Shown: positions 3,339 to 49,910 of the stretch, piece after piece
Numbering within the stretch: the first letter of the stretch is position 1
Layout of the letters: every line of letters begins with the position of its first letter
The notes under the pieces: model-generated
What the model saw: only the letters and a program-made list of their open reading frames with translations
Told to the model about the DNA's origin: nothing
The model's database searches: none
Translations under genes and position numbers: made by a program
From: Metellina segmentata
Lineage: Eukaryota > Arthropoda > Arachnida > Araneae > Tetragnathidae
DNA: 64,000 nt
Direction: 5' to 3'
Assembly: GCA_947359465.1 (NCBI GenBank)
Contig: OX375876.1
Location: forward strand, 123,747,444-123,811,443

Positions 3339-3492
3339 TGTTGGGTTAGCAGAGATAGTGGCCAAACATAAGGATGACAAACGTTACTTTTATTATTCAC
3401 ATATAATTCACAATACAAACAATAAACTTAGAAATTACGGGAGCGCCTATGGTAACACACTCCCTCTGAGTAAAGTCTCAACAGCAACTGAG

Positions 3493-23002: not shown

Positions 23003-23290
23003 CAGAATCCGAAAGTTCATATTCAACAACAAACTCTAAAAATCTTATAGAAGATCCTTCCAGAGAATCTTCTTTTGAAACTTGGTTAGCTTGTAGATGT
23101 CTTCTTAGTAGTGAAATCTCTCTAAGGCTATCATCTACAGAAAGTTCACAGTTTACGATTACGTTTTGTATTAACTGTGGCAGTTAGTCTTCTGAAGTTG
23201 TAATCAGTTTCTTGGGCTCGAAAACTACAAACCGAGCTGTAATATTTTCCATGTCTTTACTGTCAGTGTCTATTTCTTGATAAAAACCTG
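23003..23290 (-). pseudogene. hAT/ZMYM1-like relic, segment after the palindromic element
   Basis: The minus strand encodes YQEIDTDSKDMENITARFVV, then FEPKKL, and ends with SLREISLLRRHLQ and an FLEFVV segment, matching the middle of ZMYM1-like hAT proteins. It continues, in frame, the segment that ends at 37641. The last six bases (AACCTG) are the target site duplicated by the large element. Confidence 0.78.
23285..23290. repeat. 6-bp target-site duplication (left)
   Basis: AACCTG directly before the palindromic element. The second copy is 37635-37640. Confidence 0.85.
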
Positions 23291-23366
23291 AGTAGTATGG
23301 GGGTCCCTTGAGCGTCTAAACAAGATGGCCGCCGTTTGTTTACATTTAGGAGGAGGAATCAGATAA

Positions 23367-23414
23367 CGTTGTTGGGGGGAGATAAGGATTCGTTGTTGGG
23401 GGGAGATAAGGATT
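23367..23414. repeat. 24-bp tandem repeat, two copies (left arm)
   Basis: CGTTGTTGGGGGGAGATAAG plus GATT, twice without change, about 75 bp from the element's tip. The G-run on one strand is a possible binding site or structure element. The mirror copy is at 37511-37558. Confidence 0.85.
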
Positions 23415-23470
23415 TGAGGTGGTTACTGATAAGAACTTGACGTTTTGTTTTCATTTTTCGGTGGACGAGA

Positions 23471-23478
23471 TGACGTCA
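23471..23478. promoter_or_regulatory. CRE-like palindrome TGACGTCA (left arm)
   Basis: An exact cAMP-response-element/ATF-CREB consensus between the tandem repeat and the first CTCF-like site. The mirror copy is at 37447-37454. A regulatory role is inferred from the motif and from its clustering with others. Confidence 0.4.
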
Positions 23479-23519
23479 TGTTGTTGATGGTGAGTTTCCA
23501 TGGTGATGAAGGACTGGTA

Positions 23520-23877
23520 GCGCCACCTGGTGGTGGGATGAGTAACCGTATTATATGAATTTAAAAAGGATTTTCTCGGATTCGAACCGGGGACCATGGG
23601 TTCCGAAAGCAGACATGCTATCCGTTGAGCTATCGAGCACTTGCGAGGAAAGGGTGTTTAAATGTAGCGTTTGCTTTTTCTCTCAGTTTGGGACTTGTGA
23701 AAATATTGGGAGTGGTGGGGTTTTAATTTTGAATAATTAATCTTCTAATGAATTGAGTTGGGAAACGACTGGTAGCGCCATCTAGGGATTTTTCAAGTAA
23801 CTAATTAAATATAAGATTTGATATTCTCGTATATAATTTCTAATGGAGTGAAAATGACAGGTACCGCCATCTAGGGG
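23520..23877 (-). promoter_or_regulatory. Cluster of three CTCF-consensus-like sites (left arm)
   Basis: On the minus strand, 23520-23533 reads CCACCAGGTGGCGC, matching the CTCF core consensus CCASYAGRKGGCRS at all 14 positions. 23864-23877 (CCCCTAGATGGCGG) matches 13 of 14 and 23775-23788 (TCCCTAGATGGCGC) 12 of 14. All three point the same way and lie in degenerate repeats that share an ACTGGTAGCGCC-like start and a GTAAC end. This suggests an insulator or chromatin-loop anchor, by inference. Confidence 0.5.
23568..23640 (-). ncRNA. tRNA-like sequence 1 (left arm)
   Basis: The minus strand has a box-A-like TAGCTCAACGGATAGCATG and a box B GGTTCGAATCC at normal tRNA spacing. Acceptor and anticodon stems do not pair properly, and two bases seem missing from the D-arm, so it is unlikely to make a working tRNA. 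It may still act as a pol III promoter. Confidence 0.45.
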
Positions 23878-23968
23878 TGGAGAAAGTAACACATAGTATT
23901 AAAAGGATTTATTTCCCAGCTATATTTTAGAATTAAATGGATAATTATTTGAAAGAAAAATAATAATA

Positions 23969-24047
23969 CGTGGATTCGAACCCAGCAAAAGGTAATCACG
24001 GCCAACCGATTTTACACAAGCACTTTATGCGTTCGACCATGATAACC
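23969..24047 (-). ncRNA. tRNA-Ser-like sequence A (left arm)
   Basis: The minus strand has TCATGGTCGAACGCATAAAG, a long variable-arm region and GGGTTCGAATCC. Length and layout resemble a class II (serine-type) tRNA, but the stems are degenerate. It belongs to a direct duplication of about 360 bp whose second copy holds sequence B. Confidence 0.45.
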
Positions 24048-24327
24048 TATATATGATAGTGTTGTATTTAAAATAGACTTTCATTTTGTGAATGCGTACA
24101 GTACCAAAGATTGAAAATTCTAGAAGCTTCTGGAAAGGGTGACTCAGTTTTGTTTAGCCTGTATAAGGTTAATTAAGGTAGCAGAAGAACCGGAGTTATA
24201 CCCGAAGACACTGATAGGATACAATCTTAATTAAACAACTGTGGCCAAAGTGACTTTTGCAATATGTGTGTTTTACATGAATCATCTATAGTATAGATAT
24301 AATAATATCCTGTGTGAATAATAATAT

Positions 24328-24404
24328 GTGAATTTGAACCCAGCAAAAGGTGCTCGCGGTCAACAGATTTTACACAAGCACTTTATCCGTTTGATTACGA
24401 CTAC
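24328..24404 (-). ncRNA. tRNA-Ser-like sequence B (left arm)
   Basis: Starts GTAGTCGTAATCAAACGGAT on the minus strand, close to the usual 5' end of serine tRNAs, with a T-arm GGGTTCAAATTC. It is the more decayed at box B. Probably not a functional tRNA. Confidence 0.42.
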
Positions 24405-24796
24405 ATAAATGATCGTGTTATATTTAAAATAGTCTATCATTCTGTTAATGCGTATAGTACATACTACCAAATATTGAAAAGTCTAGAAGCCCCTGGAACG
24501 TGTGAGAATTACACATGACTAAGGATAATGTTTTTGCACGTGTAGGTTAAAGAGAAGGAACGGACTTATACAAGGAGTCATCGATAAAAGTGACTCAAAA
24601 GAAAATTAAAGATTAGCTTAAACTACTGAAGTACACGTGTTGTGGTATCTGAAAATGTTAGGGACCAAACAAAAGAAAGTGATTATACTGTTTGATAACT
24701 AAGAGGCTTTTAAAAGCATAGTTGAATTTGTTTCTAGGGTCTTTGAATAATTTTGCTTCTCTGGATTTTTGCCCTTCTACTGTTTTCAGATACATC

Positions 24797-25432
24797 ATGG
24801 ATTCTAGTGATATTAGACCTGCAAAGAAAATGCGTACAGACAAAGAACAGTGTTTTCAGAAATACTGTAAAGATTCTTTATGCTATGAATATGGTAAATT
24901 GTTTACAGATTGTGATGGTTGGTCATATTTCCGTCGATTGGAAAACGAATTAACGTATTTAAAGAAAGAGGAAACTACTATAGAAATTTACGGTAAGAAA
25001 CATACTGTGCCTCGACAACTTGTAGCATATGGAGACGAAGGTATAAGCTATACCTTTAGTGGATCTTGTATTGCAGCCAAGCCCTGTTCTCCTTTACTGT
25101 TGGAAATAAAGGGTGAAGTGGAACGAATAATTGATGCAAGATTTAATTTTGTGTTGGTGAACCGTTATAAAGATGGTAAGGACTGTATAGGTGCACATAA
25201 AGACAACGAGAAGGACTTGGATCATAATGCACCCATAGCATCTGTTTCATTTGGACAAAAAAGACAGTTTGTGTTTTCTAGAAAGAACTACAACTCTTTA
25301 AAAATTGTTCTGGAAAATGGAAGTTTACTTTTAATGATTTATCCAACCAACAAATTTTGGTTACACAGCTTACACCGTGGAAATGCATTATGCCCTAGAA
25401 TCAACTTAACGTTTCGAAAAATTATTGTATAA
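24797..25432 (+). CDS. AlkB-like 2-oxoglutarate/Fe(II) dioxygenase, ALKBH2-type (left arm)
   Basis: An intact 211-residue frame from ATG at 24797; an in-frame ATG at 24722 is less likely because a splice-acceptor-like TTTTCAG lies between. AlkB enzymes oxidatively remove N1-methyladenine and N3-methylcytosine lesions from DNA or RNA. Visible: VPRQLVAYGD and YTFSG (substrate-lid region, residues 71-89), N122-Y124-DG, the iron ligands H134 and D136 in HKD, PIASVSFG (146-153), GSLLLM, the distal iron ligand H190 in WLH, and the 2-oxoglutarate-binding R-x5-R (R201, R207 in RINLTFR). All catalytic residues are present and the length fits a minimal ALKBH2/3. The gene is compact and intronless, and a second full copy sits in the other arm. 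Viral or transposon cargo is inferred from context. Confidence 0.92.
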   Translation: MDSSDIRPAKKMRTDKEQCFQKYCKDSLCYEYGKLFTDCDGWSYFRRLENELTYLKKEETTIEIYGKKHTVPRQLVAYGDEGISYTFSGSCIAAKPCSPLLLEIKGEVERIIDARFNFVLVNRYKDGKDCIGAHKDNEKDLDHNAPIASVSFGQKRQFVFSRKNYNSLKIVLENGSLLLMIYPTNKFWLHSLHRGNALCPRINLTFRKIIV

Positions 25433-27197
25433 ATTAGTGATAATACCCATATGACCCCCTGAACTGGAACACAGTGTAAATAGGAATGTACACTAAACGA
25501 TATTTGGAAAACGTTACAATTAATATTTATGCCTTTGTGAATATTATTTTTTATACTTACATCTTATTGTTATTTTAAAGAAACTTTTATGCGTGTCTTA
25601 TGACATACACAGTATTCTGGATTTAAAAAAAAATTAAATACTAATTTTATAAATTGTGTCTTTTTTAATGCAAGATCTGAAATAAAATTTTATTTGCTAT
25701 AAATATTTATGTGTTTTTTTAAATTTAGATGCTTTCACTTAAACACTAATTATACATTAGATTCTACAGCACATATTTTTATTGCAGAATTTATTTTTAA
25801 ATACTGTACACTTAAGTAAAAATAAAAAAATATTATTTATTTTATTTGAAAACTTTGCAAAACCATACTATGCACATGTTTCCTTGTAAATTTTTTTTTA
25901 AATTGAACTAAAGAAAACTCACCCATATACCACAGAAGTACAACATGGTACTTACAGAAGTAAGTTGATTAAACAAAGAAACAGTAGAACAAAGTTAATT
26001 AAACTTACAAGATTTGATGACCTTAACAAATGAGTAGAAACGCAGATGTACATTTGAAGAAGTTATAATCGTATTGAAATCTAAACCATATGTTATTTTT
26101 TAATTATTATTTCCTAGTCATATAATTTTTTTAAAATTAATCTGGCTAAAATTTAATGATTCAATTTTTTAGATTTACAAACTTTTTTAAATGAAATTTT
26201 CTTTGATTTATTGTAAAATATTAAGATGCTTTTACACAAAAATTAGATACTATTACACATATTTTAATAATGATTTTAAAAACATACGATTGAAACATAT
26301 AAATTTGGTATTATTAAAAAATTTTAAATGCAGATTACAAAAAATAATTATTTACAATTTAGACATTTAGCATTTTGATTTCTTAAAGCATGTTTTTATG
26401 TAAGAAAAAAATTAAGAAGAAACCTGTAAAAGTAAAATATTTTTTACCTTTAGTTGAAACATTGCAAGACCCATACTATGAAGATGTTTAATTGTACATT
26501 TGAAGTAGTGAAAATGAATATTAATAAACTTTTAGTGCTTGAAGTTCTAAATTAAATGTCTTTATTCTAATGCTCTTGCAAACCATACATTTTACTAAAC
26601 ATATGAACTTCTTTTTATTTACTTGAAAACCTTGTGTATATTATGCAGTTTAAATTGCAGAGTCAAATGCCAATTTTGTACAAGTATTTTACAAGATACT
26701 TTGTATAGGTCTTTTATAATTTTAGATGTACTACATTGCTACGTTAAATGGATAGTAAGTGGGTTTTTGTGATTTTTGAAAATAATGTGTACATTTTAAG
26801 GCTGCTAAACAAAATAAATTATTGCCCTTTCTTGATAGTTAATGCATAATCTAAAGATTTACTCACACCACTGATAGTTTTACACATGAGTAAAATTTAA
26901 AAAACAACGGAAAATTTTAAATACTAATTAATTTTTAAATGAACAAATATCATTGAAATAATGTTTAAGTATGAATTTTATGTATTCTTCAAACAATCTC
27001 TGCAAAAAACAAATTGTTCTAAAACATATTGAAAAATAATTCTAAAACATATTGAAAAATAATTCTAAAACATTTTGAAAGAAGTCATACTGAAACAAAG
27101 TAAACTATATAACACTTTTTAATTGAAAAAAAAAACACAGGATTCATATATTTTACACAAAGTAATGCACTATAGTAAAAACAAAAGAACGTATTTT
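25433..27197. repeat. AT-rich region with degenerate repeated modules (left arm)
   Basis: No gene-like frame. Modules recur: an AGATGCTTTCACTTAAACAC-like word with a following TACAGCACATATTTT (25725-25780) has a diverged partner at 26222-26275, and AAAACTTTGCAAAACCATAC (about 25848) has partners at about 26458 and 26625. At 27010-27082 a 24-bp unit with ATTCTAAAACATATTGAAAA repeats three times. The repeats could serve replication or chromatin roles; that is only a guess. The mirror region is 33728-35492. Confidence 0.5.
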
Positions 27198-27744
27198 TTA
27201 CATGCCTGCATTTTTTAAGAGACAAATATTTCCTATGAGCCAGTTATTAAAAGCCGTCACCTCAGCTTTTGGGCAATGCAAATGATTTTTGTGATGACCA
27301 CATGATAGTTTTTCGATCTCTTTGTTGGTGCTTAGAGCACATAGTACATCGAATTTTGGACACCCAAAGTGTTCCAAGTTGATGTTTGGAATATTCAAGG
27401 CATCTAAGCGTTGTTTCTCAACACAACCACCTTTGTAAGCAACTAGGTACTGAGAGACACTCTTTGTCTGCTTGTACAATTCCAAAAGTTTAGAGTCTAG
27501 ACTTTCTAAGGGATACACATTTTCCCATGCTATGGGACAAAAAAGGAAGTCCACACACGTAATTTTCAACATATCGCACAGTTTTACGATCTTTGACACT
27601 AAGTTTATACTTATAAGGCGATAGGTTAAAACGAATACTCGCAGCTACTTGCGATTTTATAGCGATGTAACCGTATTCACGTACTAAGAAACCTTCGTTA
27701 GTTTGAAAACCATCAAAATGCACAATTGCGCAAATGTTAAACAT
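27198..27744 (-). pseudogene. RNase-H-like/nuclease-like gene with one frame break (left arm)
   Basis: Two overlapping minus-strand frames look like one protein of about 180 residues. The first (from ATG at 27744) has AIVHFDGFQTNEGFLVREYGYIAI, whose acidic D in a beta-strand followed by a second strand resembles RNase-H-fold proteins common in arthropod mobile elements. The second (ending at 27198) contains HFGCPKFDVL and a C-x2-H-x3-H-x2-C cluster (CGHHKNHLHC) and ends NNWL. The change of frame maps near a run of six T/A at 27539-27544. The same break is in the other arm, so it predates arm copying, or the frames are read by a programmed shift. The gene has its own TATA box. The family assignment is tentative. 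Confidence 0.5.
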
Positions 27745-27810
27745 TGCTATTCAAAAGCGTTATATGCTCGTGGAAAAATAGTTGTAAACTGGAGACACAA
27801 AGAACTGAAC

Positions 27811-27818
27811 TATATATA
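27811..27818 (-). promoter_or_regulatory. TATA box of the RNase-H-like gene (left arm)
   Basis: TATATATA on the minus strand, about 67-74 bp before the start codon, followed after about 28 bp by a TCCAGTTT initiator-like word. This is a plausible pol II core promoter. The mirror copy is 33107-33114. Confidence 0.5.
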
Positions 27819-27856
27819 GCACCATACACTTACTAATCAGTAAAGTTAATCTTATT

Positions 27857-28374
27857 TTAGTCTTTTATCTTTTGTGAGTAACAATAAACTCGTAAGTGAA
27901 GAATGTACTCAGAAAACACGTGCTTGTGATAATGTGACAAGTAAAGCTTTATGTTGTAATACAGGATTTTAACAAAAGGGGGTATGCTTAAATGTGCATG
28001 TAATTTGTTCTTTTTTTTTGCTCTATCACGTAGATGAGTTGAATACAATTCAATTCGGTGACTAAACTTGAGCAAGAAAAAAAAATATGTAATCAAATAT
28101 AATTTATACTCGAGGAACTTGTTTTTTTTTTACTTTCTTTAAAGTATACCGATTTCTCTTGATTATGTTGTTTTATTTTTCTAAATTTATATCAGTAAAT
28201 TGAATTACTTATTTATGGGCTCAAATCTTTGCCTTTTGTTGAACAGAAATTAGTATCTTTGACTAGTATCCGATTTTTTTAAATTGACGAAGATAACCTT
28301 TATGAGGGGATTTAACTCAATAGGCCCTATAATTTTACACTTAAGAGTAACAGAGCAGTATAGTTTTTAGGAAA
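27857..28374. other. Intergenic region between RNase-H-like and IAP genes (left arm)
   Basis: AT-rich. A minus-strand 79-residue frame (27857-28096) has no domain and is identical in the mirror arm only because the arms are nearly identical. I do not support it as a gene. Confidence 0.4.
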
Positions 28375-28926
28375 ATGAATAACCATTATGTAAATTTGAA
28401 GCCAAAATTTCCAAGCATGTCTATGCTTAATAAACGCCTATCTACGTTTAGAGATTGGCCACGCACAAACTTTGACATTTGGGACCTGGCCGAAAACGGA
28501 TTGTTTTATACGGGTGTATCGGACAGAGTCAGGTGTTATTGGTGTGGCGAAGGGCTTGAAAATTGGCAAGAAGAGGATGTAGTGAGACACGAACACGTAA
28601 AGTTTTATCCAAAATGTTTGGTAGCCCAGCAACAGCAAATGATTGCTGACCCTAGATCAAAAAGAACACCAACAGATGAAATTGTACAGGTGGATGAAAT
28701 CAAGAATAATACCAATGGTTTAATAAAACCCTATGTAAAAAACTACCCCTCAAACAACGACAAGGACGTACGACTTTGTAAAATTTGTTTAGAATCCGAA
28801 ATGGATGCTACTTTACAGCCTTGCGGGCATCTGGTGACATGCATGAGATGTACGAAAGGTCTCTTAACGTGTCCTATGTGCCGAACCAATATTTTACATA
28901 AAATTAAAACGTACATTTGTTACTAA
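28375..28926 (+). CDS. iap: Inhibitor of apoptosis protein, one BIR plus RING (left arm)
   Basis: A 183-residue intact frame. The BIR domain (about 18-84) has the start RLSTFRDWP and the zinc ligands C54, C57, H74 and C81 (C-x2-C-x16-H-x6-C) with the GLENWQEEDVVRHEH signature. A linker follows, then a C3HC4 RING (C135, C138, C150, H152, C156, C159, C166, C169). IAPs bind caspases or IAP antagonists through the BIR and act as ubiquitin ligases through the RING. One BIR and a RING in under 200 residues, without introns, is the layout of virus-carried IAPs such as those of baculoviruses. The context on a mobile palindrome next to an AlkB gene suggests host-interaction cargo. It lies 630 bp from the divergent RNase-H-like gene. 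Confidence 0.95.
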   Translation: MNNHYVNLKPKFPSMSMLNKRLSTFRDWPRTNFDIWDLAENGLFYTGVSDRVRCYWCGEGLENWQEEDVVRHEHVKFYPKCLVAQQQQMIADPRSKRTPTDEIVQVDEIKNNTNGLIKPYVKNYPSNNDKDVRLCKICLESEMDATLQPCGHLVTCMRCTKGLLTCPMCRTNILHKIKTYICY

Positions 28927-29804
28927 ACGTTATCTATCATTTATCAATTCAAGTAGTAGATGCAATTTTTAGTGACTAACTGAACATGACGTGAAAGAAT
29001 TCCATAAGAGTGGTATTTTGAGTTTAATGTTATTAAAGTAATACATGTGCGGCAGCAAAAAGACTAGTAAGGAGGTTCGATACTTCTAAAATAATTATAA
29101 GACTTTCTATCAAGGACTTGTGGTAAAATCGTGTAGGAAAGACTTATACCTCTTCTAAATATATTAAATATAATAACTATTTTACTTATCTGTTGTTTGT
29201 TCATTACATGCTAAACCTATTTTGGATAGAGGAATTTTAAAGTGCCTTAAAAAGGAGTTACAAATTGCTTTAAGAAAGATGTGTGTAAAAGTACTCTGTT
29301 AATGTAAGAATGTTAAAGCTGGAAATAAATATTGATATTTTGAAATTTTTTCCTTTTTTATTTTCTAATTGATTTTTTACTGCATAACTTTTTCTTTTTT
29401 ATTGTTCTTAATAAACTTTATTTTGCTTTTTCCTTTTTTTAAAAAAAAGAACACCGTAACTTATATTTTTTGTTACTGCTTAACTTTTTTTTCTTTTACT
29501 GTAAAAAATTTGTTTTACTGTTTAATTTTTTTTTTACTGTTTAATTTTTTTAATTGTTTAACTTCTTTTTAACATTATCAAAAAAATACTATAATTGTTG
29601 TATAGAATATTTTTTTTTTGACAACACTGGATTGAAGATAAAATATTTATTGAAAAACATAAGAATCGGTAAAACAGTTAATATAATTGTTATAACATAC
29701 ATATCTTACAAGTCTTGTACATACGTTTCTCTAACAGTATTGAAAATATCTGTTGTACTCAAATTCTCAAAAAAAGTTGCCCTCTAATATTATGTCATAA
29801 AGTT
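28927..29804. other. IAP 3' flank and T-rich tract (left arm)
   Basis: Holds an AATAAA polyadenylation-type signal near 29321 and a long T-rich stretch (29350-29570) with repeated TTTTTACTGTTTAA words. Frames through the T-rich tract are low-complexity artefacts. Confidence 0.5.
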
Positions 29805-30173
29805 TTATATTTTATTGCTCTCTCTTACAAAATTAATAGCAAACTCTTTCCAGTTAACAGCACATAAAGCAAGGGTGAAATATTCGCAAAAGCGTTCGTC
29901 AACACTCATCTTCATGCAAGCATGTACAGATTGATTGACAATTTCATTCTTACAACCTAAGAAATCATAAAGAATAGTAATATTTTTTACCACAATTTCC
30001 TTTAGGCACTTGCAGAGAGAAGCTATAACTTCTCTCCAACAATCAGATTTATCAGTATTACTGCAGTAAAGTTTGTAGCTTTCACCAGGAAAACCATTTT
30101 TTTGATTTCCAGTTTCACATAGTATGGCAGCAAATACGTCAAAAGCGATATTTTCAATACATATGACACACAA
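29805..30173 (-). CDS. Unrecognised Cys-containing protein, 122 residues (left arm)
   Basis: The frame starts at an ATG at 30173 and is identical to its twin in the other arm. The protein is mostly helical-looking with nine scattered cysteines (MCVICIENIAFDVFAA..., ALCAVNWKEF near the end). I recognise no family. Immediately upstream on the same strand, other frames (30023-30410) show similar helical, Cys-containing sequence, so it may be the C-terminal part of a longer broken protein that begins near the axis. Function unknown. Confidence 0.5.
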   Translation of the reverse strand: MCVICIENIAFDVFAAILCETGNQKNGFPGESYKLYCSNTDKSDCWREVIASLCKCLKEIVVKNITILYDFLGCKNEIVNQSVHACMKMSVDERFCEYFTLALCAVNWKEFAINFVRESNKI

Positions 30174-30250
30174 GCGTAAAATTCACACAATTTAAAGTAC
30201 TGATCGAAATTCATAAACACACAATGGGGCGAGAACTGAAAACAATTTTC

Positions 30251-30496
30251 TTATTTCTGAAATACACGTTGTAAAAAAAAGTTCAATTTTTCAGCATCAG
30301 ACGCTTTAGAAAGGAAGACTTCGTTCTCTATAACTTTAACGTCGGAGGCAGTTGCAAACGAGAAAAACTTGCTCACCTTCTCCATAAGAATATACCATGT
30401 TTTCGGATGCATAGAAACACATTCCTTCGTTGGTTGCAAGACACTGTGTTTACCTAACGTAAATTTACGTATGTGGACACAGTGTCTTGCAACCAA
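30251..30496 (-). pseudogene. Frame crossing the palindrome axis
   Basis: This minus-strand frame starts in the right arm and reads across the axis into the left arm. From CVSMHPKTWYILMEK on, it matches its twin at 30514-30735 on the plus strand. The twins diverge after EKLNFF because a poly-A/T run has eight bases here and nine there. Probably the N-terminal part of the same unknown protein as 29805-30173, broken by frame changes. Confidence 0.4.
30441..30486. repeat. Axis of the 14.3-kb palindrome
   Basis: The centre is a perfect 14-bp palindrome ACGTAAATTTACGT (30457-30470). Next to it the arms differ for 7 versus 6 bases (CCTAA-side versus ATGTGG-side), and from GACACTGTGT/ACACAGTGTC outward they match again. 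The only clustered asymmetry I noticed in the whole element sits here. Confidence 0.85.
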
Positions 30497-30513
30497 CGAA
30501 GGAATGTGTTTCT

Positions 30514-30735
30514 ATGCATCCGAAAACATGGTATATTCTTATGGAGAAGGTGAGCAAGTTTTTCTCGTTTGCAACTGCCTCCGACGTTAAAGTTATAGAG
30601 AACGAAGTCTTCCTTTCTAAAGCGTCTGATGCTGAAAAATTGAACTTTTTTTTTACAACGTGTATTTCAGAAATAAGAAAATTGTTTTCAGTTCTCGCCC
30701 CATTGTGTGTTTATGAATTTCGATCAGTACTTTAA
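30514..30735 (+). pseudogene. Axis-proximal frame (right arm)
   Basis: Plus-strand twin of the axis-crossing frame, beginning MHPKTWYILMEK at the first ATG. One extra T in the homopolymer near 30651 puts it in the frame that leads towards the 122-residue gene at 30754, but a TAA at 30733 intervenes. Unrecognised. Confidence 0.4.
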
Positions 30736-30753
30736 ATTGTGTGAATTTTACGC

Positions 30754-31122
30754 TTGTGTGTCATATGTATTGAAAATATCGCTTTTGACGTATTTGCTGC
30801 CATACTATGTGAAACTGGAAATCAAAAAAATGGTTTTCCTGGTGAAAGCTACAAACTTTACTGCAGTAATACTGATAAATCTGATTGTTGGAGAGAAGTT
30901 ATAGCTTCTCTCTGCAAGTGCCTAAAGGAAATTGTGGTAAAAAATATTACTATTCTTTATGATTTCTTAGGTTGTAAGAATGAAATTGTCAATCAATCTG
31001 TACATGCTTGCATGAAGATGAGTGTTGACGAACGCTTTTGCGAATATTTCACCCTTGCTTTATGTGCTGTTAACTGGAAAGAGTTTGCTATTAATTTTGT
31101 AAGAGAGAGCAATAAAATATAA
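30754..31122 (+). CDS. Unrecognised Cys-containing protein, 122 residues (right arm)
   Basis: Same predicted protein as 29805-30173 on the other arm. It lies in the same frame as the upstream piece 30514-30735, which supports a single original gene. No family recognised. Confidence 0.5.
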   Translation: MCVICIENIAFDVFAAILCETGNQKNGFPGESYKLYCSNTDKSDCWREVIASLCKCLKEIVVKNITILYDFLGCKNEIVNQSVHACMKMSVDERFCEYFTLALCAVNWKEFAINFVRESNKI

Positions 31123-32025
31123 AACTTTATGACATAATATTAGAGGGCAACTTTTTTTGAGAATTTGAGTACAACAGATATTTTTCAATACTGTTAGAGA
31201 AACGTATGTACAAGACTTGTAAGATATGTATGTTATAACAATTATATTAACTGTTTTACCGATTCTTATGTTTTTCAATAAATATTTTATCTTCAATCCA
31301 GTGTTGTCAAAAAAAAATATTCTATACAACAATTATAGTATTTTTTTGATAATGTTAAAAAGAAGTTAAACAATTAAAAAAATTAAACAGTAAAAAAAAA
31401 ATTAAACAGTAAAACAAATTTTTTACAGTAAAAGAAAAAAAAGTTAAGCAGTAACAAAAAATATAAGTTACGGTGTTCTTTTTTTTAAAAAAAGGAAAAA
31501 GCAAAATAAAGTTTATTAAGAACAATAAAAAAGAAAAAGTTATGCAGTAAAAAATCAATTAGAAAATAAAAAAGGAAAAAATTTCAAAATATCAATATTT
31601 ATTTCCAGCTTTAACATTCTTACATTAACAGAGTACTTTTACACACATCTTTCTTAAAGCAATTTGTAACTCCTTTTTAAGGCACTTTAAAATTCCTCTA
31701 TCCAAAATAGGTTTAGCATGTAATGAACAAACAACAGATAAGTAAAATAGTTATTATATTTAATATATTTAGAAGAGGTATAAGTCTTTCCTACACGATT
31801 TTACCACAAGTCCTTGATAGAAAGTCTTATAATTATTTTAGAAGTATCGAACCTCCTTACTAGTCTTTTTGCTGCCGCACATGTATTACTTTAATAACAT
31901 TAAACTCAAAATACCACTCTTATGGAATTCTTTCACGTCATGTTCAGTTAGTCACTAAAAATTGCATCTACTACTTGAATTGATAAATGATAGATAACGT
32001 TTAGTAACAAATGTACGTTTTAATT
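31123..32025. other. T-rich/A-rich tract and IAP 3' flank (right arm)
   Basis: Mirror of 28927-29804. One extra base near 31185 relative to the left arm changes the spurious frames there. No gene supported. Confidence 0.5.
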
Positions 32026-32550
32026 TTATGTAAAATATGTTCGGCACATAGGACACGTTAAGAGACCTTTCGTACATCTCATGCATGTCACCAGATGCCC
32101 GCAAGGCTGTAAAGTAGCATCCATTTCGGATTCTAAACAAATTTTACAAAGTCGTACGTCCTTGTCGTTGTTTGAGGGGTAGTTTTTTACATAGGGTTTT
32201 ATTAAACCATTGGTATTATTCTTGATTTCATCCACCTGTACAATTTCATCTGTTGGTGTTCTTTTTGATCTAGGGTCAGCAATCATTTGCTGTTGCTGGG
32301 CTACCAAACATTTTGGATAAAACTTTACGTGTTCGTGTCTCACTACATCCTCTTCTTGCCAATTTTCAAGCCCTTCGCCACACCAATAACACCTGACTCT
32401 GTCCGATACACCCGTATAAAACAATCCGTTTTCGGCCAGGTCCCAAATGTCAAAGTTTGTGCGTGGCCAATCTCTAAACGTAGATAGGCGTTTATTAAGC
32501 ATAGACATGCTTGGAAATTTTGGCTTCAAATTTACATAATGGTTATTCAT
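32026..32550 (-). CDS. iap: Inhibitor of apoptosis protein, one BIR plus RING, altered C-terminus (right arm)
   Basis: Near-identical to the copy at 28375-28926 up to and including the last RING cysteine. A 2-base deletion just after CPMCRT changes the frame, so this copy has 174 residues and ends TYFT instead of a longer basic-aromatic tail. All eight RING ligands and the four BIR zinc ligands remain, so it may still fold. The tail of IAP RINGs can contribute to dimerisation and ligase activity, so activity could differ between the two copies. Confidence 0.93.
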   Translation of the reverse strand: MNNHYVNLKPKFPSMSMLNKRLSTFRDWPRTNFDIWDLAENGLFYTGVSDRVRCYWCGEGLENWQEEDVVRHEHVKFYPKCLVAQQQQMIADPRSKRTPTDEIVQVDEIKNNTNGLIKPYVKNYPSNNDKDVRLCKICLESEMDATLQPCGHLVTCMRCTKGLLTCPMCRTYFT

Positions 32551-33106
32551 TTTCCTAAAAACTATACTGCTCTGTTACTCTTAAGTGTAAAATTATAGGG
32601 CCTATTGAGTTAAATCCCCTCATAAAGGTTATCTTCGTCAATTTAAAAAAATCGGATACTAGTCAAAGATACTAATTTCTGTTCAACAAAAGGCAAAGAT
32701 TTGAGCCCATAAATAAGTAATTCAATTTACTGATATAAATTTAGAAAAATAAAACAACATAATCAAGAGAAATCGGTATACTTTAAAGAAAGTAAAAAAA
32801 AAACAAGTTCCTCGAGTATAAATTATATTTGATTACATATTTTTTTTTCTTGCTCAAGTTTAGTCACCGAATTGAATTGTATTCAACTCATCTACGTGAT
32901 AGAGCAAAAAAAAAGAACAAATTACATGCACATTTAAGCATACCCCCTTTTGTTAAAATCCTGTATTACAACATAAAGCTTTACTTGTCACATTATCACA
33001 AGCACGTGTTTTCTGAGTACATTCTTCACTTACGAGTTTATTGTTACTCACAAAAGATAAAAGACTAAAATAAGATTAACTTTACTGATTAGTAAGTGTA
33101 TGGTGC

Positions 33107-33114
33107 TATATATA
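33107..33114 (+). promoter_or_regulatory. TATA box of the RNase-H-like gene (right arm)
   Basis: TATATATA 67-74 bp before the ATG at 33181, mirror of 27811-27818. Confidence 0.5.
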
Positions 33115-33180
33115 GTTCAGTTCTTTGTGTCTCCAGTTTACAACTATTTTTCCACGAGCATATAACGCTTTTGAATAGCA

Positions 33181-33727
33181 ATGTTTAACATTTGCGCAAT
33201 TGTGCATTTTGATGGTTTTCAAACTAACGAAGGTTTCTTAGTACGTGAATACGGTTACATCGCTATAAAATCGCAAGTAGCTGCGAGTATTCGTTTTAAC
33301 CTATCGCCTTATAAGTATAAACTTAGTGTCAAAGATCGTAAAACTGTGCGATATGTTGAAAATTACGTGTGTGGACTTCCTTTTTTGTCCCATAGCATGG
33401 GAAAATGTGTATCCCTTAGAAAGTCTAGACTCTAAACTTTTGGAATTGTACAAGCAGACAAAGAGTGTCTCTCAGTACCTAGTTGCTTACAAAGGTGGTT
33501 GTGTTGAGAAACAACGCTTAGATGCCTTGAATATTCCAAACATCAACTTGGAACACTTTGGGTGTCCAAAATTCGATGTACTATGTGCTCTAAGCACCAA
33601 CAAAGAGATCGAAAAACTATCATGTGGTCATCACAAAAATCATTTGCATTGCCCAAAAGCTGAGGTGACGGCTTTTAATAACTGGCTCATAGGAAATATT
33701 TGTCTCTTAAAAAATGCAGGCATGTAA
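33181..33727 (+). pseudogene. RNase-H-like/nuclease-like gene with one frame break (right arm)
   Basis: Mirror of 27198-27744. First frame 33181-33435, second frame 33326-33727, the change again at a six-T run (33381-33386). The shared lesion means both arms were copied from one already broken (or frameshift-read) gene, or were homogenised later. Confidence 0.5.
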
Positions 33728-35492
33728 AAAATACGTTCTTTTGTTTTTACTATAGTGCATTACTTTGTGTAAAATATATGAATCCTGTGTTTTTTTTTTC
33801 AATTAAAAAGTGTTATATAGTTTACTTTGTTTCAGTATGACTTCTTTCAAAATGTTTTAGAATTATTTTTCAATATGTTTTAGAATTATTTTTCAATATG
33901 TTTTAGAACAATTTGTTTTTTGCAGAGATTGTTTGAAGAATACATAAAATTCATACTTAAACATTATTTCAATGATATTTGTTCATTTAAAAATTAATTA
34001 GTATTTAAAATTTTCCGTTGTTTTTTAAATTTTACTCATGTGTAAAACTATCAGTGGTGTGAGTAAATCTTTAGATTATGCATTAACTATCAAGAAAGGG
34101 CAATAATTTATTTTGTTTAGCAGCCTTAAAATGTACACATTATTTTCAAAAATCACAAAAACCCACTTACTATCCATTTAACGTAGCAATGTAGTACATC
34201 TAAAATTATAAAAGACCTATACAAAGTATCTTGTAAAATACTTGTACAAAATTGGCATTTGACTCTGCAATTTAAACTGCATAATATACACAAGGTTTTC
34301 AAGTAAATAAAAAGAAGTTCATATGTTTAGTAAAATGTATGGTTTGCAAGAGCATTAGAATAAAGACATTTAATTTAGAACTTCAAGCACTAAAAGTTTA
34401 TTAATATTCATTTTCACTACTTCAAATGTACAATTAAACATCTTCATAGTATGGGTCTTGCAATGTTTCAACTAAAGGTAAAAAATATTTTACTTTTACA
34501 GGTTTCTTCTTAATTTTTTTCTTACATAAAAACATGCTTTAAGAAATCAAAATGCTAAATGTCTAAATTGTAAATAATTATTTTTTGTAATCTGCATTTA
34601 AAATTTTTTAATAATACCAAATTTATATGTTTCAATCGTATGTTTTTAAAATCATTATTAAAATATGTGTAATAGTATCTAATTTTTGTGTAAAAGCATC
34701 TTAATATTTTACAATAAATCAAAGAAAATTTCATTTAAAAAAGTTTGTAAATCTAAAAAATTGAATCATTAAATTTTAGCCAGATTAATTTAAAACAAAT
34801 TATATGACTAGGAAATAATAATTAAAAAATAACATATGGTTTAGATTTCAATACGATTATAACTTCTTCAAATGTACATCTGCGTTTCTACTCATTTGTT
34901 AAGGTCATCAAATCTTGTAAGTTTAATTAACTTTGTTCTACTGTTTCTTTGTTTAATCAACTTACTTCTGTAAGTACCATGTTGTACTTCTGTGGTATAT
35001 GGGTGAGTTTTCTTTAGTTCAATTTAAAAAAAAATTTACAAGGAAACATGTGCATAGTATGGTTTTGCAAAGTTTTCAAATAAAATAAAAAATATTTTTT
35101 TATTTTTACTTAAGTGTACAGTATTTAAAAATAAATTCTGCAATAAAAATATGTGCTGTAGAATCTAATGTATAATTAGTGTTTAAGTGAAAGCATCTAA
35201 ATTTAAAAAAACACATAAATATTTATAGCAAATAAAATTTTATTTCAGATCTTGCATTAAAAAAGACACAATTTATAAAATTAGTATTTAATTTTTTTTT
35301 AAATCCAGAATACTGTGTATGTCATAAGACACGCATAAAAGTTTCTTTAAAATAACAATAAGATGTAAGTATAAAAAATAATATTCACAAAGGCATAAAT
35401 ATTAATTGTAACGTTTTCCAAATATCGTTTAGTGTACATTCCTATTTACACTGTGTTCCAGTTCAGGGGGTCATATGGGTATTATCACTAAT
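33728..35492. repeat. AT-rich region with degenerate repeated modules (right arm)
   Basis: Mirror of 25433-27197, with a small cluster of substitutions near 34790-34800. Confidence 0.5.
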
Positions 35493-36128
35493 TTATACAA
35501 TAATTTTTCGAAACGTTAAGTTGATTCTAGGGCATAATGCATTTCCACGGTGTAAGCTGTGTAACCAAAATTTGTTGGTTGGATAAATCATTAAAAGTAA
35601 ACTTCCATTTTCCAGAACAATTTTTAAAGAGTTGTAGTTCTTTCTAGAAAACACAAACTGTCTTTTTTGTCCAAATGAAACAGATGCTATGGGTGCATTA
35701 TGATCCAAGTCCTTCTCGTTGTCTTTATGTGCACCTATACAGTCCTTACCATCTTTATAACGGTTCACCAACACAAAATTAAATCTTGCATCAATTATTC
35801 GTTCCACTTCACCCTTTATTTCCAACAGTAAAGGAGAACAGGGCTTGGCTGCAATACAAGATCCACTAAAGGTATAGCTTATACCTTCGTCTCCATATGC
35901 TACAAGTTGTCGAGGCACAGTATGTTTCTTACCGTAAATTTCTATAGTAGTTTCCTCTTTCTTTAAATACGTTAATTCGTTTTCCAATCGACGGAAATAT
36001 GACCAACCATCACAATCTGTAAACAATTTACCATATTCATAGCATAAAGAATCTTTACAGTATTTCTGAAAACACTGTTCTTTGTCTGTACGCATTTTCT
36101 TTGCAGGTCTAATATCACTAGAATCCAT
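35493..36128 (-). CDS. AlkB-like 2-oxoglutarate/Fe(II) dioxygenase (right arm)
   Basis: Same 211-residue protein as 24797-25432, with every catalytic residue present (HKD, WLH, RINLTFR). No amino-acid change from the left copy was seen. Two intact copies after an old insertion suggest youth, selection or arm-to-arm gene conversion. Confidence 0.92.
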   Translation of the reverse strand: MDSSDIRPAKKMRTDKEQCFQKYCKDSLCYEYGKLFTDCDGWSYFRRLENELTYLKKEETTIEIYGKKHTVPRQLVAYGDEGISYTFSGSCIAAKPCSPLLLEIKGEVERIIDARFNFVLVNRYKDGKDCIGAHKDNEKDLDHNAPIASVSFGQKRQFVFSRKNYNSLKIVLENGSLLLMIYPTNKFWLHSLHRGNALCPRINLTFRKIIV

Positions 36129-36284
36129 GATGTATCTGAAAACAGTAGAAGGGCAAAAATCCAGAGAAGCAAAATTATTCAAAGACCCTAGAAACAAATT
36201 CAACTATGCTTTTAAAAGACTCTTAGTTATCAAACAGTATAATCACTTTCTTTTGTTTGGTCCCTAACATTTTCAGATACCACA

Positions 36285-36984
36285 ACACGTGTACTTCAGT
36301 AGTTTAAGCTAATCTTTAATTTTCTTTTGAGTCACTTTTATCGATGACTCCTTGTATAAGTCCGTTCCTTCTCTTTAACCTACACGTGCAAAAACATTAT
36401 CCTTAGTCATGTGTAATTCTCACACGTTCCAGGGGCTTCTAGACTTTTCAATATTTGGTAGTATGTACTATACGCATTAACAGAATGATAGACTATTTTA
36501 AATATAACACGATCATTTATGTAGTCGTAATCAAACGGATAAAGTGCTTGTGTAAAATCTGTTGACCGCGAGCACCTTTTGCTGGGTTCAAATTCACATA
36601 TTATTATTCACACAGGATATTATTATATCTATACTATAGATGATTCATGTAAAACACACATATTGCAAAAGTCACTTTGGCCACAGTTGTTTAATTAAGA
36701 TTGTATCCTATCAGTGTCTTCGGGTATAACTCCGGTTCTTCTGCTACCTTAATTAACCTTATACAGGCTAAACAAAACTGAGTCACCCTTTCCAGAAGCT
36801 TCTAGAATTTTCAATCTTTGGTACTGTACGCATTCACAAAATGAAAGTCTATTTTAAATACAACACTATCATATATAGGTTATCATGGTCGAACGCATAA
36901 AGTGCTTGTGTAAAATCGGTTGGCCGTGATTACCTTTTGCTGGGTTCGAATCCACGTATTATTATTTTTCTTTCAAATAATTAT
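36285..36984. repeat. Direct duplication with two tRNA-Ser-like sequences (right arm)
   Basis: Mirror of 23941-24640. The tRNA-like sequences are on the plus strand at 36521-36597 and 36878-36956. Confidence 0.6.
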
Positions 36985-37047
36985 CCATTTAATTCTAAAA
37001 TATAGCTGGGAAATAAATCCTTTTAATACTATGTGTTACTTTCTCCA

Positions 37048-37405
37048 CCCCTAGATGGCGGTACCTGTCATTTTCACTCCATTAGAAATTATATACGAGA
37101 ATATCAAATCTTATATTTAATTAGTTACTTGAAAAATCCCTAGATGGCGCTACCAGTCGTTTCCCAACTCAATTCATTAGAAGATTAATTATTCAAAATT
37201 AAAACCCCACCACTCCCAATATTTTCACAAGTCCCAAACTGAGAGAAAAAGCAAACGCTACATTTAAACACCCTTTCCTCACAAGTGCTCGATAGCTCAA
37301 CGGATAGCATGTCTGCTTTCGGAACCCATGGTCCCCGGTTCGAATCCGAGAAAATCCTTTTTAAATTCATATAATACGGTTACTCATCCCACCACCAGGT
37401 GGCGC
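37048..37405 (+). promoter_or_regulatory. Cluster of three CTCF-consensus-like sites (right arm)
   Basis: Mirror sites at 37048-37061, 37137-37150 and 37392-37405 (the last is CCACCAGGTGGCGC, a full match to the core consensus). Because the arms are inverted, the two clusters are in opposite orientation and about 13 kb apart. Confidence 0.5.
37285..37357 (+). ncRNA. tRNA-like sequence 1 (right arm)
   Basis: Mirror of 23568-23640, with box A TAGCTCAACGGATAGCATG and box B GGTTCGAATCC. Stems are degenerate. Confidence 0.45.
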
Positions 37406-37446
37406 TACCAGTCCTTCATCACCATGGAAACTCACCATCAACAACA

Positions 37447-37454
37447 TGACGTCA
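37447..37454. promoter_or_regulatory. CRE-like palindrome TGACGTCA (right arm)
   Basis: Mirror of 23471-23478. Confidence 0.4.
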
Positions 37455-37510
37455 TCTCGTCCACCGAAAAATGAAAACAAAACGTCAAGTTCTTATCAGT
37501 AACCACCTCA

Positions 37511-37558
37511 AATCCTTATCTCCCCCCAACAACGAATCCTTATCTCCCCCCAACAACG
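37511..37558. repeat. 24-bp tandem repeat, two copies (right arm)
   Basis: Mirror of 23367-23414, reading CTTATCTCCCCCCAACAACG. Confidence 0.85.
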
Positions 37559-37634
37559 TTATCTGATTCCTCCTCCTAAATGTAAACAAATGGCGGCCAT
37601 CTTGTTTAGACGCTCAAGGGACCCCCATACTACT

Positions 37635-37640
37635 AACCTG
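37635..37640. repeat. 6-bp target-site duplication (right)
   Basis: AACCTG directly after the element. Pairs with 23285-23290. Confidence 0.85.
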
Positions 37641-38114
37641 TCAATGCACTCCAGCAATGATCTTTTGAATTCTTCATTCAATGTAAGTGGTTCTTGAGCC
37701 TTTTCTACAGCCATCATTTTCTTCTTTCTAATGATTCTTCTTTTCACTAAAGGAATGTCCGTCTCTTCACAAGTGTTCGTTGCAAAATACAGTGCTTTCT
37801 CACGATCTCATTTCTTTTGTCTTTCAAAAATATTTTCAAACTTCTCATTTTGCTAACATTTCTCAAAACGTATCCCAGCAATCTGTAGGTATTGTGAGCG
37901 TGGTTTACTTCTTCTAAAACACTACTCCAGAAATACAAAAGACATAAGAAAGAAAAATCACATACTGCTGGCAAAAGGGTTTCTGTGGGATTACAAAGTT
38001 CTTCTACGGCATCAACAATCTTCCAGAAATCAGCTTATACAGTCTTTACAGCTTCGTAGTGAGTACTCCATCATGTGTCTGACAGTCTCTTGACTGTACC
38101 TCCAATATTAGTTA
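37641..38114 (-). pseudogene. hAT/ZMYM1-like transposase relic, segment before the palindromic element
   Basis: Read on the minus strand from about 38040: FWKIVDAVEEL, then LLPAVCDFSFLCLLYFWSSV, LEEVNHAHNTY, LKIFLKDKRNEIV, KRRIIRKKKM and LNEEFKRSLLECIDR, in two frames because of a short deletion near 37745-37805. This is the middle of a hAT-derived ZMYM1-like protein. It stops at the AACCTG target and resumes at 23290. On the other side it is cut at 38115 by a Helitron-like end. Stops and frame changes make it a relic. Confidence 0.8.
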
Positions 38115-38299
38115 CTAGCCACTGCGTGGCTAGCCAGGCGTTTCCCGTGCCCGTGGTGTTTGTTTGCGAAGCAAACATAACGCCTAACACCACGGGCAAC
38201 GCCGTGATATAAGGTAGTATTCTGGTGAAAAATTTTCCGCAGATTTCAAATCCGCTGAATTGTTTAATCTATTTTTAACGGTCTTGGAGATAGAAAAAA

Positions 38300-41134
38300 G
38301 AACTGACTTCAGTTGAAAGATTTGTCGTCTGGCTGGAAATTTATTTGTCCGCGCAAAATCAAAGCGGAAATGAAATTAAAAAAAAAATTTCTCCGCGTTC
38401 TGCGGTTGAAAAAAAACTTGGCATACTTCTAAACCCTGACACCCCCCTAGTACAAACTGAAGAGAACACCTAGTACTCTCCACTACGCACCGTCGAATTC
38501 TGCGTTTCTCTGCGTTTATTGACTGAACTTATGTTTTAATACCCTGTGAGATCGTGAAATACTGGAGCCAGCTGCAACCCAACTGTTGTTTTTGTTTCGC
38601 GAGTTTAACGAGCGATAAAAAGGAGTCTGAAACAGAAGCCGCTTCTGCAGGTGTTCTTTCCGACGGATCGCCGACTGGCCTTTGACCTTTGCCGTTGGGG
38701 GAACTTGGAGATTGTGGGGGAGGCCGGAGTCGACGGGGAGAGAGCGAGAAGCGAGGTTGAGTTTTCCTCGCGCTGACCCGTGAGATGCACATCTCGATAT
38801 ATAAATATTGATTCTTTGTAAATTGTAAATAATTCTAACTAATAAGAACGTGATTTTCTTAGCTGTTGGTTGTTTTCTCCTCATATACGATTTTCTGATG
38901 CTACCATTTTTGGGAGACGACACCACAACCCATTATAATGATTTATTGAAGTTACTTGTCAGATGCAGTTATCAAACTCGTTTTAAGCAGGGTGTAAAAA
39001 ATCATGATTTTTTAACAAAATAATCCATTAACGGATTTATTTTATTTAAATCGGATTTTTTTTAAAATTTAAATCATGAATTTTTATTTAATTTCTGTGG
39101 TCCCTATACACTGTTTTTATAATAATTATATATAAATTTGTTAAATAAAAAATTGAGTTTGTGACATGACATGCAAACCGATATTTATTTTTAAGTAAAC
39201 AATCAGAATTTGCGACATGGTAAATCAATATTTGCTTACTAAAATCAGTTTCTTGCATGGTGATACAATTAAAAAATAAAAGCAAAAGGTAAAACATTTG
39301 CTTAACTTTAAAACACAAGTTGACATCCCTCATAGTTTTTCTTGAGTAAATTACATCATCATGTTAACAAATTTATCAGTAAGTGTAAGAACAGACCTAA
39401 ACTATTGTCTGAGAAGTAGAATAGAGAAATAATCAGACTAAAGAAATTTCGAATAATAAAACTGCCGAACAGCAATAATAAATGAATTTTCACTTAGTTT
39501 TAATTCACATTGGATCTTTCTTCCTGCTGACATTTTAATGGTTATGTGATTGAAAATGTACATTTCTACTCTTTAATTTCTATTGCACATCACAAGAATA
39601 AGCTACTGACAAATGCCTCAAAAAACTTTACTTCCCACTTGTGTTTTTTTTTTTTTGCTAATGAAATCAGTCACCCTTTTAGTTTATAATTTTGAATCAA
39701 ACTTTTGCATACTTCCTTTAAGTGTTTATATTTTGAGTGCTGTTAATCAGGAATGTTTATACATTACTCTTCCTGGTATTTAGATTTATGATGTCATGTG
39801 TGTTTACATTAACGGTTCCAGTATATAGTATATTCTAATAAGTTACAACTGGCAGTTACTATCTTTTATAATATCTAGTAATTGACCCAGTTCCCTCTGA
39901 GCTGGGTTGTAGCCATTAGTGCTGAAATCACCATGAGAGCAGAAAGATTAAAGCATTTGACCACTTCTGTGATTTTCCTATGGTGTATTTACTTACTTAT
40001 AAAAATGTAAGATTAGTTGTGATTAAAATCATTATTTTAATCGTTGATTTAAAACTTGACACCAAGGTTTTAAGTATAATATTTTTTTAAGTCATTCCCA
40101 TTTTTAAAATAAAAAGAAAACACCCACATTTTTACCATTTTGACACCCCCGTGTGTGATGACACCCCGGGCGGCCCCCACCCACCTTCCTACGCCACTGG
40201 AAGACCATGGATTTCTCGGCGACAGTTGAAAAGTGTAAAAAACTTGCTTCCGGAGAGGTCACGGAAGATCATAGACTATTTAAGGACGGATGAAATGCTT
40301 CCAATTATTTGACTCTGAAGGTGGGACCTTTAATACCATGGAAAATGCACTACTTTCAACTTTTCCGCAAGGTACTGGCTCGTCAACCAGTTTTTTTTAC
40401 ACATTTTGTGATGTACTGGAATCCATTTTCTTTCAAAACATTTTCTATTTCTTTATAAGCGTTTGTTTCGGTTTTTGTAGTCAGCATGTCCATCATGGAA
40501 AATTTCAAATCTATGATATTCACTTATTAACATCTTCGTAGCTCCCCCTGACCACCAATCACTCATTTTTGACGTAGCATACGTCTTACCTTTCGAAACT
40601 GGGGTACCACGCTTAATTTTCAAGAGTCACAAAAAAAGCGTAAGTGCGAAAAATTTAATGATTTGAAATTTTCCCCAGATGCATAAATGAAAAATATCGC
40701 TTTGAAATGATCATTGAACAAAGAATGTTATAAATACTCATAGATCGTGTGCTGACGTCATCGGCTGATGCAATCGCAGCGCAAAGTTGAGTCGTCACGA
40801 AATGCGCACTGCCGATCACATTTATTTAGTCTTGCACCGGCCTTTTTTGTTTCGTCTCTTTGCGCTTTAAAATAAAAATAGAAATAAAACTTAAATATTT
40901 AATACTTGTTTAGATATCAGACTTCAAAGTGGAAATCCCGCAAAAGTTTCAAAATGTCCAAATATATGCCTTATATAAACGTCAACAGGAAGAATGATCC
41001 AGATTCTGATGCTGAGCCTCAACGGGCTCGGCGAGTTGCTGCTCACATAATTAGTCTAGCCACAGACTCCTTTGTGTGAGCTCGACGTTTGAGAACGTGA
41101 CAGTTCTTTTCGTGGGAGTCACATTGCCCGTGGC
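38300..41134. other. Unit 1 sequence without a supported gene
   Basis: Contains a GC-richer block (38480-38790) whose overlapping minus-strand frames have no domain, AT-rich sequence to 40130, and at 40140-40199 a CAGTGGCGTAGGAAGG-type hAT end on the minus strand. Around 40889-41010 an ATGTCCAAATATATG block resembles 43045-43180. Both look like 5' ends of hAT-type genes. Nothing intact. Confidence 0.45.
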
Positions 41135-49401: not shown

Positions 49402-49910
49402 CCATTGAAATTATTGACTAAATATTCTGGCTGTATAGAATTTATCTAATTCTATGAAAAACTCAAGCTTTATATCAGGTTGCATAAATCATGCTACCTC
49501 TGTGACCCTTACCTCTTCCATCAACTCTCTGAGCTACGGCAAGGCGCAAATATTCTATTTTCCCAAGTTGTTAACGGAAATAAAATTATAATTACTTCAT
49601 TCTTAAGAACAAAGAATATTATGATGCATTGAAAATTCCGCCATTTTATCAGTCATTTTTTTTTAATGATCACAAAAATTATGAAAATGATAGGAAATGA
49701 AAAATCTTAAGAATTAAAAAAAAAAAGACATAAGAAAGAAAAATCACATACTGCTGGCAAAAGGGTTTCTGTGGGATTACAAAGTTCTTCTACGGCATCA
49801 ACAATCTTCCAGAAATCAGCTTATACAATCTTTACAGCTTCGTAGTGAGTACTCCATCATGTGTCTGACAGTCTCTTGACTGTACCTCCAATATTAGTTA
49901 CTAGCCACTG

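Follow-up and report, generated by a model that had tools for sequence, protein, structure and literature searches.

Foldback transposons have very long inverted repeats with repetitive arms, and their termini and target duplications are different, while the yeast killer plasmids and some adenovirus variants include palindromic deletion derivatives in which fold-back has duplicated one end of a linear, protein-primed DNA. Closest to the locus described here are the Mavericks or Polintons (polintoviruses, adintoviruses). The locus lies in a 64-kb stretch of the genome of the spider Metellina segmentata (hereafter the window; positions 123,747,444–123,811,443 of contig OX375876.1, here C4), in which positions 23291–37634 form a mobile element that is a palindrome along its full length. 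According to the excerpts of the source drawn on here, vertebrate Mavericks commonly end in (AGT)2//(ACT)2 or (AG)3//(CT)3, make 6-bp target duplications and measure 12.7–24.6 kb in total, with inverted repeats of 46–1447 bp and 7–8 conserved open reading frames (ORFs) in a unique core (PMC8097293). The Bidnaviridae, again as presented in excerpts of the source, are a two-segment virus family with a PolB derived from Polintons (PMC4061559). We conclude, with a probability of about 0.65, that the element in the window is one copy of a Maverick/Polinton-derived family that is integrated as a complete ~14.4-kb palindrome and would propagate as a self-paired hairpin replicon with functions supplied in trans. 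The finding is real, and larger than the single locus to which an earlier note on this stretch had drawn attention: it comprises a successful family of full-length palindromic Maverick-derived elements and a palindromic sister set bearing PolB. PubMed Central full-text searches, covering titles and the starts of abstracts, brought up no published description of such an element, a scope that takes in neither subscription papers nor Repbase.

The left arm of the palindrome (23291–30463, plus strand, 7173 bp) begins AGTAGTATGGGGG, and the right arm (30464–37634, minus strand, 7171 bp) ends in the exact reverse complement, CCCCCATACTACT. The arms are 99.79% identical end to end, with 15 differing columns scattered along their alignment, 4 of which lie within 14 bp of the axis, in a core (30450–30477) that consists of a short asymmetric spacer and an inner inverted repeat. 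A chance origin of this palindrome is out of the question. The G+C content is 0.31 in the arm and 0.33–0.34 in the flanks. On either side stands the target-site duplication AACCTG (23285–23290 and 37635–37640), and copies elsewhere have other 6-mers. Each arm carries an AlkB gene, an IAP gene and two further reading frames, ORF2 and ORF4, which are described below. The coordinates, the inverted ends, the duplication and the arm lengths are exactly as the earlier note had given them. Its proposal that the element interrupts a hAT relic whose frame becomes continuous upon removal of the insert holds in part: the joined flanks read protein-like on the minus strand, as judged by eye, but a one-base frame change lies beside the junction, and profile support for hAT there consists of a single sub-threshold match to the hAT dimerisation domain (E 0.054). 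The 64-kb window contains no empty (uninserted) copy of the target site.

Searching the host assembly (1.665 Gb in 173 contigs) with the tip and with AlkB, as the earlier note had suggested, reveals many copies with different 6-bp duplications. With a 500-bp tip query, 40 matches of 870 candidates were scored, and 34 of them fall into 17 inverted pairs 13.7–15.9 kb apart. All 12 left tips for which both flanks of the pair were fetched begin AGTAGTAT, and 9 of these 12 pairs have exact 6-bp duplications, all different. In a tenth pair, at C1:2.40 (C1:2397623–2411984), the duplication CGCGTG follows one extra ACT at the right end, which thus has three ACT triplets, a possible trace of sliding-back in protein-primed initiation. 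Ten further copies, fetched as halves, are mirrored over most of their length, with aligned pieces 98.6–99.9% alike; the mirror match is a single piece of ~6.5–7.2 kb in 7 of them and is interrupted by one-arm insertions in the other 3, and such insertions together with central asymmetries account for the deviations from the mirror image. Among the best 150 of 879 candidates scored in the AlkB search, 110 matches form 55 convergent pairs (at least 55 genome-wide), 39 of them spaced 10.5–10.9 kb; one pair of neighbours at 8–16 kb has any other arrangement, and 40 of the 150 are unpaired among the scored matches. The presence of the same tips at other sites, each with its own 6-bp duplication, strongly supports the earlier view that the element moved as one unit and is terminal inverted repeat throughout ('all-TIR'); copies without these ends or duplications had been named as telling against that view, and the 12 tip pairs do not overturn it.

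Fold-back reads in library preparation or assembly could in principle generate palindromes of this kind, and one locus looks the part: at C3:124.65 (C3:124654971–124670508), the flanks are themselves mirrored over at least 1500 bp at 99.87%, which points either to a larger inverted duplication or to a fold-back error in the assembly. Had such reads produced the palindromes, the flanks would be mirrored too, whereas the flanks of these elements differ and carry the duplication (exact in 9 of 12 pairs), the differences between arms are scattered and private, and the 55 AlkB pairs lie on many contigs. We regard an artefact as very improbable.

Judged by its ends and the footprint of its integration, the element behaves like a Maverick. 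The tips, AGTAGTAT and ATACTACT in the window, are of the (AGT)2//(ACT)2 type there and in all 12 tip pairs; a 6-bp duplication is present in the window, is exact in 9 of 12 pairs of the AlkB type and in all 8 PolB-type pairs checked; and the length falls within the vertebrate range as given in the excerpts mentioned above. Unlike in Mavericks, where short repeats surround a unique core, the repeat here is the whole element, in the window and, one-arm indels aside, in ten further copies, and Pfam recognises no core gene in the ORFs scanned. None of the 64 genome matches to PF03175 (PolB) lies within the window, nor do the window ORFs scanned match that family, an integrase, a protease, a packaging ATPase or a capsid protein, the last of which Pfam may miss. 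A protein-primed PolB of the Polinton type is carried instead by sister palindromes. Because short repeats around a unique core and a PolB of its own are lacking, we do not file the element as a Maverick. The earlier note had compared the element with Polintons, to which it ascribed 6-bp duplications and 5'-AG ends, and had otherwise stressed the contrast; with (AGT)2//(ACT)2 ends and a 6-bp duplication, and with PolB in palindromes whose tips are related, that contrast becomes kinship.

The 64 matches to PF03175 came from a search of the host assembly in which 91 of 393 candidates were scored, and among them the PolB exonuclease domain forms 9 convergent pairs. At C10:116.79, the arm contains a Polinton-type PolB in pieces, one over the Pfam cut-off, two weak and three without a match. 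The tips lie at mirror positions with the duplication GGCATA, 307 bp of the end is mirrored at 100%, and the centre is mirrored as well, at 97.3% over 528 bp around a short loop; inspected by eye, this loop repeats sequence of the arm next to it, which is a sign of template switching. For seven more PolB pairs, the ends were examined close to where C10 predicts them, the tip motif being sought within 1.1-kb stretches and found 4–27 bp from the predicted place. All seven have the tips and exact 6-bp duplications, measure 14,120–14,647 bp and have end arms 99.4–100% alike over 475–522 bp; the ninth pair is C12:55.05. In most copies, AlkB-type and PolB-type arms have the same first 48 bp; they also share subterminal blocks and, as seen in C10, one block nearer the axis. 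At C6:15.72 Mb, a hybrid combines a terminal 0.9 kb of the AlkB type with one PolB match and is flanked by the duplication TACATT; the terminal 945 bp of the window element (23291–24235, plus strand, with its mirror at the right end) is 94.5% identical to this relative.

The two types are also of similar size. The median length is 14,372 bp for the 17 tip pairs, of which 15 are AlkB-type by alignment or AlkB matches (the rest being C1:10.18 and C11:52.24) and in which secondary insertions and losses are included, and 14,429 bp for the 8 PolB-type elements; 10 of the 17 fall within 14.30–14.45 kb. That elements with different genes are equally long suggests that their size is limited, for example by a capsid. 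These features could also be explained if the AlkB/IAP and PolB palindromes were separately packaged, same-size segments of an endogenised multipartite virus related to Mavericks, with integrase and capsid genes on further segments or on a helper Maverick. The common tips and subterminal blocks, the similar length and the hybrid element would fit such a genome, and the Bidnaviridae provide a precedent, with two small segments, a Polinton-derived PolB and terminal repeats, in the portion of the source used here (PMC4061559). That same portion describes single-stranded DNA segments of 6.5 and 6 kb and terminal repeats that are not hairpins, both unlike the present elements, together with a parvovirus-type capsid and helicase; Pfam matched neither a parvovirus-type capsid nor a superfamily 3 helicase in the ORFs scanned, among which the PolB-type arms are partly represented. 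No palindrome with a capsid or integrase gene was seen, and common tips also follow from simple common descent. We consider a multipartite virus an unlikely explanation, and similarly tentative is the proposal that every segment of a multipartite Maverick-type system (one with AlkB/IAP, one with PolB and probably others) is a size-matched full-length palindrome, re-copied from one half in every cycle via 7.2-kb hairpins.

A source of functions in trans may also exist outside the palindromes. The gene-dense, one-strand cluster at C4:130.01–130.03 Mb is conventional and Maverick-like, with a PolB frame of 1207 aa, a chromo domain (E 6.5e-8) terminating a frame that resembles an integrase C-terminus, an adenovirus-protease-like (adenain-like) protein (E 6e-4, just under the cut-off) and an A32/IVa2-like packaging-type ATPase (E about 1e-3, under the cut-off). 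Beside it lies a frame of 318 aa that includes a PC4 transcriptional coactivator domain (E 7e-9; 1226–2179 of the fetched stretch). The AlkB/IAP type is likely non-autonomous and mobilised in trans, as the earlier note proposed, and the best reading is that replication and integration are supplied wholly or partly in that manner.

The arms of one copy resemble each other more than they resemble those of other copies. Arm-against-arm substitutions amount to 0.03–0.31% in 9 copies, versus 0.70–3.78% between the left arms of 11 copies; C5:13.2 and C3:124.65 were dropped from the within-copy range because one-arm indels misalign them and give falsely high values of 2.0 and 2.4%, and their left arms were retained in the between-copy range, partly inflating it. 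Across arm positions 1–3800 of all 11 copies, these two included, the closest sequence to an arm is its own partner for 21 of 22 arms, hence the arms were born identical or were kept so. Only one arm of C5:13.2 departs from this; that copy and C7:86.05 are almost the same over these positions (differences of 0.05–0.13%). With C5:13.2 and C3:124.65 left out, 63 of the 73 arm differences in 9 copies are private and 10 are shared, 16 of the 73 being in misaligned columns near the axis of two copies. Several frame breaks are present in both arms, namely in ORF2 in the window, in AlkB at C3:131.6 and in IAP at C1:2.40 and C7:86.05, and the AlkB pairs with stops among the best-scoring 150 matches have them in both arms in 5 cases and in a single arm in 1.

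The axis core of one subfamily is asymmetric and shared between copies, which means that the palindrome is passed on and does not arise afresh at every round; the core is seen in both orientations, as expected of a palindrome that can insert either way round. A second subfamily has a different core. This comparison rests on printed cores, since automatic centre finding misregistered, and the core fits a loop that never pairs. By analogy, the pattern of the arms resembles that of two long terminal repeats (LTRs), identical at birth and then diverging, and it fits the virus with hairpin ends that the earlier note had offered as an alternative. Either one template makes both arms in every cycle or the arms are equalised; a self-paired single-strand hairpin is the simplest way, with conversion as its rival.

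From these features we infer an integration machinery, a hairpin intermediate, packaging and functions for AlkB and IAP. The first palindrome would have been produced on a displaced strand through fold-back (snap-back) synthesis. Every cycle would turn a displaced single strand into a self-paired hairpin of 7.2 kb, at whose paired tips synthesis could be protein-primed by a PolB from the PolB palindromes or from a conventional Maverick. Repair of stem mismatches would let the arms leave the cycle identical, with the unpaired loop at the axis alone staying asymmetric, and a Maverick-type integrase would then insert the linear form. AlkB (repair of alkylated DNA), IAP (block of cell death) and the predicted DEDDh-fold protein could be cargo that aids the element or its helper, and the equal length of the AlkB and PolB types may reflect packaging into a capsid. 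Unlike the palindromes of killer plasmids and adenoviruses, which are extrachromosomal by-products, this is an integrated family with dozens of copies, and unlike Foldback transposons, which it resembles in its very long inverted repeats, it and its sister set have AlkB, IAP and PolB genes.

Several observations weigh against this hairpin model. Chromosomal gene conversion, which keeps the arms of sex-chromosome palindromes alike, could also do so here. A tree built with FastTree (positions 1–3800) joins the two arms as sisters for 9 of 11 copies; the exceptions are C7:86.05, where the branch is unsupported, and C3:124.65, with a right arm placed beside C4:8.67 (support 0.93), a placement that points to recombination or a compound history at that locus. 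The differences at C2:128.03 (C2:128032074–128046473) are clustered at arm positions 4377–5053, some of them common to other copies, and represent a conversion or recombination tract. Some frame breaks affect one arm only, for example at the IAP end in the window and in ORF2 at C5:13.2, and ORF4 is little constrained (pN/pS 0.74, 5 copies). Two of the 12 tip pairs lack a 6-bp duplication, C3:124.65 with its mirrored flanks and C2:97.58 with unlike tips. A capsid gene is recognised in neither palindrome type, no integrase is tied to these tips in a PF00665 search that was swamped by retrotransposon-like matches (150 of 8476 scored), and the PolB palindromes were compared at their ends, by symmetric matches, and around the axis in one copy only.

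Conversion is central to an alternative in which a non-autonomous Maverick derivative of single fold-back origin was amplified by conventional Mavericks and owes the likeness of its arms solely to exchange in the chromosome. Such a history would draw on the conventional Maverick-like cluster in the genome, on the single 0.7-kb patch of differences at C2:128.03 and on the axis core common to copies of one subfamily, which means that the palindrome does not arise from scratch in every copy. It sits less easily with the one-arm insertions of ~1.55 kb that persist at C9:12.96 and C9:74.6 beside arms that are otherwise 99.1–99.9% alike, and with arm differences that are mostly private, though conversion would allow that too. 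The AlkB reading frame also speaks against it, since 128 of the 150 best-scoring matches have no stop (a list biased to good copies), as do pN/pS ratios below 0.4 for AlkB and IAP. We find conversion alone a doubtful explanation and favour the hairpin replicon.

Long perfect palindromes are usually unstable in chromosomes, and despite this the family has spread to dozens of sites. Its arms are a built-in clock, like two LTRs, with which one can date insertions and measure rates of conversion and the stability of palindromes, and the PolB palindromes bear on the protein-primed replication of Mavericks, on whether a hairpin intermediate occurs and on the splitting of viral DNA into parts.

Among the genes of the arms, AlkB (24797–25432, plus strand) encodes an ALKBH2-like 2OG-Fe(II) dioxygenase of 211 aa (PF13532, E 9.6e-25; human ALKBH2 structures, E 6e-46), and its mirror in the right arm (35493–36128, minus strand) is 100% identical over 211 aa. 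The best named match is an ALKBH2-like protein of the horseshoe crab Tachypleus tridentatus (52%), and the best overall is a nameless protein (66%). At C13:73156616–73175284, four AlkB matches in the same orientation, ~6.01 kb apart, are probably a tandem array derived from the element. The IAP gene of the left arm (28375–28926, plus strand) encodes one BIR domain and a RING finger in 183 aa (PF00653, E 1.5e-17; PF13920, E 3.7e-12), and the right-arm copy (32026–32550, minus strand) has 174 aa and a different C-terminus. A protein search with IAP left none of 7 candidates at E<=1e-3, a limit of the word-based search, because IAPs in the PDB match well.

ORF2 (27198–27750, minus strand; 33175–33727, plus strand) is broken in the same way in both arms of the window and has an unbroken form of 181 aa in other copies. 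Nine relatives were found, with invariant Cys/His positions, and the predicted model (pLDDT 77.9) has a DnaQ/DEDDh-like fold; the D-x-(D/E) and H-x4-E positions are present in the alignment rows that cover them, with one residue changed in the window copy. The product thus looks like a DnaQ/DEDDh-fold nuclease-like protein with putative nuclease activity. Pfam gave no match better than E 0.011 for ORF2 and its nine relatives, and their profile found none among PDB sequences up to E 10. Maelstrom came up as a tied structural match, and we make no claim to that identity. The ORF4 region beside the axis (30464–31122, plus strand; mirror 29805–30463, minus strand) has no family match. The earlier statement that every gene lies head-to-head is mistaken as regards AlkB and IAP, since these two genes converge on the axis; the frames that run outward are ORF2 and ORF4. 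A search of IMG/VR brought up neither a relative of any of AlkB, IAP and ORF2 nor an exact match to the tip.

The pN/pS ratio is 0.31 for AlkB (9 copies), 0.35 for IAP (8 copies) and 0.40 for ORF2 (6 copies entered, 4 usable, as the choice of start cut two to one codon), ratios that come from unbroken frames only, which biases them slightly down, and from small numbers without a significance test. These values are hints of purifying selection on all three genes.

Three tRNA-like stretches lie in the terminal kilobase of the window element (23565–23650, 23970–24050 and 24330–24400), all under default detection thresholds, and two of them sit inside copies of a ~191-bp repeat that are 80% alike. 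As tRNA genes near the tip they were rejected, failing Rfam and the ARAGORN defaults (one passes at a relaxed setting). In the right flank, a tandem array begins ~290 bp past the element (37931–41000, 49717–52780 and 62522–64000), with units spaced roughly 11.8 and 12.8 kb and 98.5–99.2% alike. Elsewhere in the window, positions 2053–3015 and 19920–20882 contain a P-element-like transposase fragment (PF21787, PF21788) and an ISXO2-like transposase domain (PF12762). Among the lengths listed for the contigs C1–C13 of the assembly, size falls from C1 to C11, C12 is larger and C13 smaller, which looks like 11 autosomes and two sex chromosomes, as in orb-weaver spiders.

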